The position numbers and the translations under genes were made by a program. Of a DNA stretch of 41,017 nt, positions 5,420 to 39,759 are shown piece after piece. The notes beneath the pieces are model-generated. The model ran no database searches and was not told the origin of the DNA. It worked only from the letters and a program-made list of their open reading frames with translations. Position 1 is the first letter of the stretch. Each line of letters begins with the position of its first letter. This stretch comes from Terriglobales bacterium (GTDB lineage Bacteria; Acidobacteriota; Terriglobia; Terriglobales; Acidobacteriaceae), in assembly GCA_015655315.1 (NCBI GenBank), contig JAATFH010000039.1:1-41017 (forward strand). Reading direction: 5' to 3'.

Positions 5420-6337
5420 ATGTTTGATAGAACACAGGCCATGAGGGATGAATGTATGATTCTTCAGCCCTGTCGATTTGCCGCTCTTGTTTTTTTTGCC
5501 GTCGCAGCACTTGTGCATCCTCTGTATCAGGCTTTCGCTGAGGGAGAGGATGCGGCTCCCGACGTGGTGCCGCTTGTGCGCCGAGCGGCTCAGAACGAAC
5601 TCAGGTCCTCCAACGGCAACCGACCTTACCGATATCGGCTCCACAAAATTGACGACGCGAAGGTCACCACGAAAGAAATCGTCGAGACCAAAGATGGAGA
5701 TGTGGCCCGCCTGATCGCAGTCGATGACAAGCCGCTCGACGCTGACGCTCAGAAGGCCGAAATCGATCGACTGAACAACCTGGCCGCTCACCCGGAATTA
5801 CAGGAACACCGCCGTAAACGGGAAAAAGAAGACAGCGACCGGGCGAATGAGATGATTCGTCTGCTGCCCGACGCCTTTTTGTATAAGTACGAGGGCATGA
5901 CGGACGGACCCAATGGTTCCTGCTACAGGCTCAGCTTCCAGCCCAATCCCAACTTCACTCCGCCGGACCGCGAGGCGCAGGTGTATCACGGCATGGCGGG
6001 AGAGCTATGGATCGACAAGACACAGGAGCGAATGGTGAAACTCGATGCCCATCTCATTGCCGATGTTGACTTCGGCTGGGGTATCCTGGGACGCCTCTAC
6101 AAAGGCGGCAGCATCCTGGTCGAACAAGCCGACGTGGGCGATCACCACTGGGAAACTACCCACATGAAACTGAGCCTCACCGGCAAAGCGCTCCTGATTA
6201 AGACGCTCAACTTCCAGACCACGGAAGATGCGTCTCATTTCGAGCCGGTCCCGCCAGAGATGGGCTACCAGAACGCCATCAAGATGCTGTTAAGCGATAA
6301 TGACGGCTCCCAGGTAGCCGACGGGCACATGCACTAG
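5420..6337 (+). CDS. Exported hypothetical protein (start probably 5456, MILQPCRFAALVFFAVAALVHP)
   Basis: Signal-peptide-like N-terminus and a long ORF with coding character. The C-terminal half (GELWIDKTQERMVKLDAHLIADVDFGWGILGRLYKGGSILVEQADV) resembles outer-membrane lipoprotein-sorting-like proteins. Confidence 0.75.
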   Translation: MFDRTQAMRDECMILQPCRFAALVFFAVAALVHPLYQAFAEGEDAAPDVVPLVRRAAQNELRSSNGNRPYRYRLHKIDDAKVTTKEIVETKDGDVARLIAVDDKPLDADAQKAEIDRLNNLAAHPELQEHRRKREKEDSDRANEMIRLLPDAFLYKYEGMTDGPNGSCYRLSFQPNPNFTPPDREAQVYHGMAGELWIDKTQERMVKLDAHLIADVDFGWGILGRLYKGGSILVEQADVGDHHWETTHMKLSLTGKALLIKTLNFQTTEDASHFEPVPPEMGYQNAIKMLLSDNDGSQVADGHMH

Positions 6338-6513
6338 GCTGTATCTACATCTAAAACACCCCGGTTGTCATCCTGAGCGAAGTATGACGCGCTTTTTGCG
6401 TCATACGCAGTCGAAGGATCTGTTTTCCCCTCTCCGCTCACACATTCTGCTGACCGAAAAGAAAAACAGATCCTTCGCCTCGGCTCAGGATGACAACTCT
6501 TAGTTGCGCCTAG
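6334..6513. repeat. Dispersed nested-palindrome element, copy 1 (CTAG-flanked, right arm partly deleted)
   Basis: CTAGgctgtatctacat...GGTTGTCATCCTGAGCGAAGTATGACGCGCTTTTTGCGTCATACGCAGTCGAAGGATCTGTTTT...GAAAAACAGATCCTTCGCCTCGGCTCAGGATGACAACTCTTagttgcgcCTAG. Shares sequence with copies at 29493 and 38803. Confidence 0.9.
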
Positions 6514-7301
6514 ACCAGGTTGTCGTCGCCCCCGCCGAAATCGCTGCCGAAATCATCTCCGTTTCCGAAATCGCCGCCCTGCGTATCGTCAAAGGACGTC
6601 GGATCGGTGTCAGGCTGATAGCTTGCGTCGTGAAGGCCTGCGTGGCCCTCGGGGCGTTCGTCGTAGGATGCCTCGCGCTCGTGGTGCTCGGCAAAGCCGC
6701 CGCCTTGTTGCTGCGGGTCGTCGTAATAGTTATTGATGACCGTCTCTTCGACCGGAGGCGCGCCAAAACCACCGGCATAACCACCGCCGAATCCTCCCCC
6801 GCCGCCGTGACCGAAGCCGTGCATCAGCGATTCGATTCCCTCAAAGGCCAGCGCTCCCGCGGCAACCCCGGCGGCCGTCGTGGCCGCGCTGCGCATAAAG
6901 CTACCCGCGGGGCTGGGAGCTGGCGGTGCGTAGGCCGACGAAGGCGCATATTGCGGGGGAGCCTGATATTGAGGCTGGTAGGCCGGAACCGGCTGATACT
7001 GTGCCTGGGGCGGCGGAGCAGGCGCGGGGTCGCGTTGCCCCAGCAGGCTGCCGAGAAAACTGGTTGCACGCGCAGGCTGCGGCGGCGCCTGTTGCTGCTG
7101 CAATTGCTGCAGTTGCGCGCGCGCCTGGTTCAGGGCCAGATTCTGCACCAGAACCGTCTGGGCCAGTTTGTAAATGGCGTCAGGATCGCGGCCTAGTCCT
7201 TCCAGCAGCAGTTGCTCCGCATCAGGATCCTTTTCTGTTAACTGGGTTCCTTCAACCTTGCGAACCAGATCTTCGAGCATCGAACTTTCTTGCGGTGTCA
7301 T
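6510..7301 (-). CDS. DUF2076 domain-containing protein
   Basis: MTPQESSMLEDLVRKVEGTQLTEKDPDAEQLLLEGLGRDPDAIYKLAQTVLVQNLALNQARAQLQQL, with Gln-rich and Gly-rich C-terminal segments typical of the family. Confidence 0.85.
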   Translation of the reverse strand: MTPQESSMLEDLVRKVEGTQLTEKDPDAEQLLLEGLGRDPDAIYKLAQTVLVQNLALNQARAQLQQLQQQQAPPQPARATSFLGSLLGQRDPAPAPPPQAQYQPVPAYQPQYQAPPQYAPSSAYAPPAPSPAGSFMRSAATTAAGVAAGALAFEGIESLMHGFGHGGGGGFGGGYAGGFGAPPVEETVINNYYDDPQQQGGGFAEHHEREASYDERPEGHAGLHDASYQPDTDPTSFDDTQGGDFGNGDDFGSDFGGGDDNLV

Positions 7302-29492: not shown

Positions 29493-29690
29493 TCAGGCGG
29501 TATCGACCCCTGGTTGTCATCCTGAGCGAGTAGGGCGCGTTTTTAGCGCCGTACGTAGTCGAAGGATCTGTTTTTTTGTTCGCCCACATTTTCGCTGATC
29601 GAAAAAACAGATCCTTCCCTTCGTTCCTCAGGGTCAGGATGACAACTCTTTGCTGAAAATAAGTGTCTTCTGTATGTCGATACGTCCCAG
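29493..29690. repeat. Dispersed nested-palindrome element, copy 2 (diverged)
   Basis: tcagGCGGTATCGAC...GGTTGTCATCCTGAGCGAGTAGGGCGCGTTTTTAGCGCCGTACGTAGTCGAAGGATCTGTTTTTTT...GAAAAAACAGATCCTTC...CAGGATGACAACTCTTTG...TATGTCGATACgtcccag. Confidence 0.88.
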
Positions 29691-38802: not shown

Positions 38803-39019
38803 CTAGGCTGTATCGACATATAGAACACCTTGGTTGTCATCCTGAGCGGAGTATGACGCGTTTTTTGCGTCATACGCAGTCGAAGGATCTGCTTTTTCCT
38901 GGCTCCCCCCACATTTTCGCTCACCGAAAAGAAAAACAGATCCTTCGCCTCGGCTCAGGATGACAACTCTTTGTTGAAATAAATACTTTCGCTTGCGCTT
39001 ATATGTCGATACCGCCTAG
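38803..39019. repeat. Dispersed nested-palindrome element, copy 3 (most complete; CTAG-flanked)
   Basis: CTAG-GCTGTATCGACATA ... TATGTCGATACCGC-CTAG terminal inverted repeats around GGTTGTCATCCTGAGCGGAGTATGACGCGTTTTTTGCGTCATACGCAGTCGAAGGATCTG...GAAAAACAGATCCTTCGCCTCGGCTCAGGATGACAACTCTTTG. Confidence 0.92.
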
Positions 39020-39759
39020 GGCTCGACGGAAAATAGATTCGGCAGCACTTCGCCTGCTTTGCCAAGTATGACTTCCGTAAATGCCCCTGCATTCAGCGGA
39101 GGTTCCGGTCCCACATAATAAGTTCGGACCCTGGGCGTGGCGGGTAGATTGCGTTGTCTGGCCCAGTGCACGAAGCTTGCCGCCGGGTGAACATTTCCCG
39201 ACGTACCGACAACGATCATCACACTGCAGCGGTCGATTTCCCGCATGATGCGGTCCATCTCCAGCGGGCATTCACCAAACCAGACAATATGCGGGCGAAC
39301 CTGCGCGCCACAAATGCACGCCGGAATTTGCGCTGCGGATTCATAGAGATTTCTATCCGAGAATACCGGCTCGCCGCAGTTCGCTTCGCAGCGCGAGGAG
39401 AATAGCTCTCCATGCATGTGAACCAGATTATGCGATCCCGCGCGTTCGTGAAGATCGTCAACATTTTGCGTGCAGAGAAAGAACCTCTCTCCGATCTGCG
39501 ATTCGAGAGCAGCCAAAGCGTGATGGGCCGGGTTTGGCTCACACCGCTCCGCGTCGCGCCGGCGCATGGAATAAAACTGCCACACCAGTTCAGGATTTGC
39601 TTCCCATGCCTCCGGAGTCGCCACATCCTCCACGCGATGGCCGCTCCATAGACCATCGCTGTCACGAAACGTAGGAAGACCGCTCTCGGCGCTGATTCCT
39701 GCACCGGTGAGAACGAAGACGCGTTCCTGATTTCCGATTTGAATGATGTTTGTGCTCAC
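39016..39759 (-). CDS. cobB: SIR2-family NAD-dependent protein deacylase (sirtuin)
   Basis: VFVLTGAGISAESGLPTFRDSDGLWSGHRVEDVATPEAW, FFLCTQNVDDLHERAGS, HMHGELFSSRCEANC, CICGAQVRPHIVWFGECP, VMIVVGTSGNVHPAASFV. Confidence 0.95.
   Translation of the reverse strand: MSTNIIQIGNQERVFVLTGAGISAESGLPTFRDSDGLWSGHRVEDVATPEAWEANPELVWQFYSMRRRDAERCEPNPAHHALAALESQIGERFFLCTQNVDDLHERAGSHNLVHMHGELFSSRCEANCGEPVFSDRNLYESAAQIPACICGAQVRPHIVWFGECPLEMDRIMREIDRCSVMIVVGTSGNVHPAASFVHWARQRNLPATPRVRTYYVGPEPPLNAGAFTEVILGKAGEVLPNLFSVEP

Follow-up and report, generated by a model that had tools for sequence, protein, structure and literature searches.

Two convergent genes in the window (the whole stretch of 41,017 nucleotides analyzed here, contig C44 of the genome G000) share a junction occupied by a palindromic repeat whose two ends are the stop codons of the two genes. 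We consider it very likely that this repeat is a nonautonomous MITE which was moved by an IS427-like transposase and landed in the 4-nt overlap of two convergent stop codons, with both genes kept. As a MITE the element belongs to a known kind, of which it is a thoroughly documented example, and it is not a new system; its best and most distinctive feature is the doubly neutral insertion, for which we describe a second example, at a site on contig C390 that is empty in three relatives.

A truncated MITE copy separates two convergent stop codons

The plus-strand gene at 5420 to 6337 encodes a 305-aa protein with no Pfam match and ends ATG CAC TAG, and the minus-strand gene at 6510 to 7301 encodes a 263-aa DUF2076 protein (PF09849; E = 2.3e-55) and ends CTG GTC TAG. 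The TAG of the first lies in the left CTAG (6334 to 6337) and that of the second in the right CTAG (6510 to 6513). We reread these coordinates and stops, and the first-pass annotation, which had described the two CTAGs as the ends of convergent genes, was correct. It had also called the sequence between them palindromic. The inter-CTAG interval folds with a predicted energy of −78.2 kcal/mol, compared with a shuffle mean of −42.1 kcal/mol (z = −9.3; 0 of 200 shuffles as good), and belongs to a genuine repeat family, in agreement with that description. A search for known RNA families gave no Rfam match anywhere in the window. Reading the structure as a transcription terminator was rejected, as positions 6300 to 6540 hold neither an intrinsic-terminator-like site nor a sigma-70-like promoter.

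An nhmmer model built on 20 full copies matches positions 6336 to 6506 (156.6 bits), to which other copies are 80 to 90% identical. On the plus strand, the copy begins with the left terminal inverted repeat CTAGGCTGTATCTACATCTA (6334 to 6353), which differs at 2 positions from the family consensus CTAGGNNGTATCGACATATA. The left arm of an outer hairpin, GTTGTCATCCTGAGC (6364 to 6378), pairs with 6483 to 6497 with 100% complementarity, and nested within it the left arm of an inner hairpin, AGTCGAAGGATCTGTTTT (6409 to 6426), pairs with 6463 to 6480 with 94% complementarity.

The element had been delimited as 6334 to 6513, and this interval is bounded by a CTAG at both borders; it is not a complete copy. 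By comparison with the complete copy at 38803 to 39019, a deletion of 36 bp has removed nearly the whole right terminal repeat and left the remnant CGCCTAG (6507 to 6513). Where complete copies run on as ...TTGTTGAAATAAATACTTTCGCTTGCGCTTATATGTCGATACCGCCTAG, the window copy has TTAGTTG directly followed by CGCCTAG. The window copy is probably now immobile.

The element belongs to an abundant repeat family

A genome search with the window interval returned 83 matches, 40 of which (itself aside) were strong, at 80 to 90% identity. A profile made from 20 full copies recovered 98 family loci in approximately 1.03 Mb of G000 contigs, a sample in which most contigs were picked because the repeat is present and many copies lie at contig ends. 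Genome-wide, the terminal repeat GTATCGACATATA (at most 2 mismatches) matches 207 times, versus 46 times for a reversed-pattern control. Alignment of the copies defines a full element of about 217 bp that extends from CTAGGCNGTATCGACATATAGAACACC to TATATGTCGATACNGCCTAG and carries a 20-bp terminal inverted repeat. The window itself contains two further plus-strand copies: the complete one at 38803 to 39019, whose right CTAG is the stop of a minus-strand gene (39016 to 39759), and a degenerate intergenic one at 29493 to 29690, which ends in TCAG and CCAG.

We took a MITE to be an element of 70 to 300 bp without coding capacity, with terminal inverted repeats and many dispersed copies. The family has a length of about 217 bp, 20-bp terminal repeats, and 98 loci in 1.03 Mb, and it encodes no proteins. 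Evidence of target duplication or an empty site comes from the locus on contig C390 and from a target shared by tandem copies (both described below), not from the window locus.

Several side observations concern the family as a whole. A 36-bp relic on contig C457 (L142; 14530 to 14565) consists of both terminal repeats alone, overlapping and in inverted orientation. Of 61 related genomes, 25 contain matches to stretches of the element core (GTCATCCTGAGC...GAAGGATCTG; around 6364 to 6378 and 6483 to 6497), and many of these 25 do not have the terminal repeats described here; the core appears older and more widespread than the MITE itself, and a text search of the literature with the core motif found no published description. 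The G000 assembly (5.3 Mb, 564 contigs, 77.5% complete) breaks at repeats. Many of its contigs (e.g., C201, C213, C223, C452, and C492) start or finish in or beside this repeat, which therefore probably helps to fragment the assembly.

An equivalent junction is empty in related genomes, and the stops are older than the element

We compared G000 with three congeners, G001, G002, and G003 (Acidobacterium sp. S8). The first-pass annotation had proposed comparison with relatives for an empty site at the window locus, which would read ...CATGCACTAGACCAGG..., and this site was found in none of the three. The locus has no match in G001, where DUF2076 was not found; G003 has an unrelated 129-bp spacer; and in G002 (L062; 747 to 1494) an insert of about 750 bp stands between CACTAG and AGACCAG, precisely where the two convergent genes meet. 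Scanning the genome contigs of GTDB r220 for the empty site at this locus brought up only Acidobacterium sp. S8, the species of G003.

The gene ends in G002 are nevertheless informative. The orthologue of the plus-strand gene has the same final residue (CACTAG), and the G002 DUF2076 protein also ends ...DNLV, as expected if both proteins were left intact by the insertion, which had been proposed from the window alone. The G002 flanks, from the left through CACTAG and on the right from AGACCAG, are compatible with a joined CACTAGACCAG.

The G002 insert is toxin-antitoxin-like: one ORF is Gp49-like (PF05973) and of toxin type, and a small ORF accompanies it as a partner. One junction thus holds two different insertions, the MITE in G000 and the toxin-antitoxin-like insert in G002.

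At a sister locus the empty-site comparison succeeded. On contig C390 of G000 (L110), a second copy lies between two convergent stops, flanked by ATAG and CTAA, and the three congeners carry in its place a single element-free 4-nt double stop: CTAA in G001, CTAG in G002, and CTAG in G003. The window locus and C390 are the two loci at which the element ends provide the stops of both neighbors. Together with the repeat family and the terminal repeats, the empty sites at C390 bear out the earlier proposal that the element is mobile.

These comparisons also bear on whether there was any insertion at a shared stop. The two window genes could have ended apart from the beginning, with CTAGs beside both stops by coincidence, and the spacer in G003 and the insert in G002 would suit such a history. 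Both junctions, however, match the family ends exactly, the G002 flanks suit the joined sequence, and the parallel at C390 has true empty sites, which makes coincidence highly improbable.

To date the stops, we sought the C-terminal parts of stop-bearing genes in the three congeners. Among the gene ends compared in G002 and G003, 37 of 41 fall at the same residue; TAG closes 17 of the 21 G002 genes and 11 of the 20 G003 genes, compared with 276 of 858 G000 genes overall. This agreement in the final residue, together with the prevalence of TAG, shows that the stops are older than the element.

The MITE shares its ends with IS5-family elements

Of 201 genomes from the bacterial family, 29 contain the consensus pattern CTAGGNNGTATCGACATATA; control matches are very few. 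Exactly the terminal repeat of the MITE bounds 837-bp elements in three genomes (L216 in G210, L209 in G159, and L223 in G219); a further element, L212, is 768 bp long. The 837-bp elements enclose two overlapping ORFs, DUF4096 followed by DDE_Tnp_1, whose frames are joined at an A6G slip site. In L216, ORFA matches DUF4096 (PF13340; E = 2.8e-25) and ORFB matches DDE_Tnp_1 (PF01609; E = 2.9e-21), and both score above the NCBIfam cutoff for NF033580, IS5-family transposase. Elements of the IS427 group are about 830 to 865 bp long and have a frameshift motif and two overlapping ORFs (PMC3281130); the 837-bp element has this size and layout. The direct repeats of IS427-group elements in Paracoccus are mostly 2 bp long (PMC3281130). 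Since the MITE and the 837-bp IS5-family elements have the same ends, the mobilizer is probably an IS427-like transposase, and from these shared ends we strongly infer that an IS5-family transposase moved the MITE in trans.

We found no complete transposase gene of the IS427-like group in the G000 assembly, which is 77.5% complete and fragmented at repeats. The only trace of a mobilizer there is a contig-end fragment on C261 (L178; 1 to 141, minus strand) that carries one end of an IS5-family element. It reads CTAGGGCGTATCGACATATAGACTTTGCA... and then RYELSETQ*LRIKDILPGRVEQVA, compared with RYELSEVQWEKIKDILPGRVESVG in L216, with a stop replacing a tryptophan near the transposase start. The putative G000 partner is thus deduced from relatives and from this one 141-bp fragment. 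A terminal-repeat-only match on contig C72 (L124), read onward by eye, showed no element interior.

MITEs with the same ends occur in other genomes (L221, L224, L225, L234, and L237), with interiors that are unrelated or partly related; those of L221, L224, L234, and L237 are unrelated and partly palindromic. Identical ends around different interiors suggest that a single transposase group gave rise to several families of MITEs.

Other partners were considered. An IS630/Tc1-mariner transposase would suit a CTAG or TA target and was rejected on 0 DDE_3 (PF13358) matches in G000. A RAYT/TIRYT partner was dropped once the IS5-family element with identical ends turned up. That an IS200/IS605-like tyrosine transposase (RAYT/TIRYT) moved the repeat as a REP-like or TIRtron element is extremely improbable, although the repeat has internal hairpins, flanking ORFs often take their TAG stop from GTAG-REPs, and several Acidobacteria carry TIRYT genes that have terminal repeats (PMC3733652). 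The partner with the same 20-bp ends is an IS5-family DDE transposase and not a Y1 transposase, and a palindromic target tetramer stands on both sides of the element, with one in common between tandem copies.

The target is mostly CTAG, of which TA is more likely duplicated

As had been claimed, the target is mostly CTAG: this tetramer stands at 22 of 48 left ends and 23 of 54 right ends in G000, and the others are mostly one step off. Matched end pairs CTGG/CTGG and CCAG/CCAG were found elsewhere. On contig C530 (L149; approximately 5889 to 6184), two tandem copies have one tetramer common to both (CTGG/CTAG/CTAG), as expected if the tetramer is the target.

The first-pass annotation had taken all 4 bp of CTAG to be duplicated. 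A 2-bp duplication of TA inside CTAG, in which the adjoining G and C are part of the element, fits the end sequences better and appears more likely. Changes in the end tetramer affect the outer base more often than the inner, element-side base, in G000 (19 versus 7; P = 0.03) as well as in other genomes (12 versus 2; P = 0.013); among the 35 paired elements alone the difference (11 versus 5) is not significant (P = 0.21), and some of the inner changes are misaligned ends. The unequal pair CTAG/CTAA was seen three times, CTAA/CTAA and TTAG/TTAG never. It is the steadier inner base and the unequal pairs that favor TA; at the window locus the two kinds of duplication look alike.

Duplication of the whole CTAG, with the element proper starting after it (GCNGTATCG...) as in E. 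coli IS5 and MITEPsy1, is possible and in our judgment rather unlikely. CTAG/CTAG is the commonest end pair (14 of 35 in other genomes), the IS5 target duplication is 4 bp (PMC11677980), and MITEPsy1 duplicates CTAG or YTAA (PMC3189936). A 4-bp duplication does not, however, lead one to expect that the element-side G and C vary less than the outer C and G, or that mismatched pairs of the CTAG/CTAA type occur yet CTAA/CTAA and TTAG/TTAG do not; moreover, in its size and its arrangement of two ORFs the mobilizer matches the IS427 group, in which 2-bp repeats predominate (PMC3281130).

With TA as the duplicated target, the following sequence of events can be proposed. An IS427-like transposase of the IS5 family would recognize the terminal repeat GGNNGTATCGACATATA, mobilize the MITE in trans, and insert it at the TA within CTAG, the preferred target, duplicating the TA. 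The first base of the element is G and its last base is C, so that at each junction one of the two strands would read TA followed by G. A TA that opens a TAG or TAA stop would thus become a TAG stop after insertion, on both strands where convergent stops overlap. The window copy would have hit such a 4-nt overlap, leaving both proteins at the same length, and a later deletion would have taken 36 bp from its right end. Neither gene would be harmed because a TA-in-CTAG target and the end bases of the element rebuild TAG on both sides.

One may speculate further that the terminal G...C of the IS427-type lineage was itself selected for writing TAG stops with the duplicated TA (TAA becoming TAG), so that the element would carry its own stop repair and convergent double stops would be reusable safe harbors; we regard this as decidedly unlikely. 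The safe-harbor reading cites the window locus, where the sister species has a toxin-antitoxin-like insert as well.

Copies lie at stops no more often than comparable CTAGs

According to gene calls from a home-made dicodon gene finder, an element end is the stop of a called gene in 27 of 71 assessable copies in the approximately 1.03 Mb of G000. Element-free CTAGs in the same DNA number 267 in genes, 123 between genes, 56 at one stop, and 1 at a shared stop. The genome-wide enrichment at stop codons that the first-pass annotation had anticipated is strong when copies with called flanks are compared with all element-free CTAGs (23 of 51 versus 57 of 447). It disappears within gap classes: stops account for 15 of 23 copies versus 18 of 32 free CTAGs in convergent gaps (P = 0.58) and for 8 of 21 versus 35 of 86 in tandem gaps (P = 1.0). 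What differs is the choice of gap. Convergent gaps are favored (23 of 51 copies versus 32 of 165 free CTAGs; P = 0.0004), and divergent gaps are avoided (7 of 51 versus 47 of 165; P = 0.04).

Active targeting of stop codons, or of transcript 3′ ends, beyond the CTAG preference could be read into the 27 of 71 copies that form a stop codon and into the excess over element-free CTAGs as a whole. The lack of any excess over gene-sparing CTAGs of the same gap class argues against it, and we consider such targeting very unlikely. Within the overall explanation that we favor as very likely, the distribution would instead be accounted for by CTAG preference and loss of harmful insertions, with a transposase that does not seek stops: copies would stand at gene ends because many of the CTAGs that lie outside genes are stop codons and because copies that disrupt a gene or a promoter do not persist.

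These numbers show how a high-copy element with a four-base preference can become the stop codon of many of its neighbors without harm. The clearest instance is an overlap of convergent stops, where one insertion must spare two genes; in the literature searched (open-access text only), we found no description of a MITE in overlapping convergent stops. For annotators, many stop codons in such genomes belong to a repeat. An abundant, unnamed repeat of the bacterial family is now linked to a transposase group.

Comparison with known systems

The insertion sequences in relatives agree with the IS427 group of the IS5 family in their 837-bp length, two overlapping ORFs, A6G slip site, and DUF4096 and DDE_Tnp_1 domains, and their ends, CTAGGNNGTATCGACATATA, are identical to those of the MITE. 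The window element, in contrast, has only these ends in common with the insertion sequences and lacks a transposase ORF, and no complete insertion sequence of this group was found in G000. GTAG-REP palindromes (PMC3733652) are likewise extragenic palindromic repeats whose termini are often the TAG stop of flanking genes; they differ in being tied to RAYT tyrosine transposases and in lacking a terminal inverted repeat pair and target duplication. MITEPsy1 of Pseudomonas syringae resembles the element in being short and noncoding, with IS5-type ends and a CTAG/YTAA preference, and differs in its length of 100 bp, its six copies, and its reported 4-bp duplication; the available part of its description mentions no stop-codon pattern (PMC3189936). 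The MITEs L221, L224, L225, L234, and L237 of other genomes share with the window element both the terminal repeat and a CTAG-type target and enclose other interiors.
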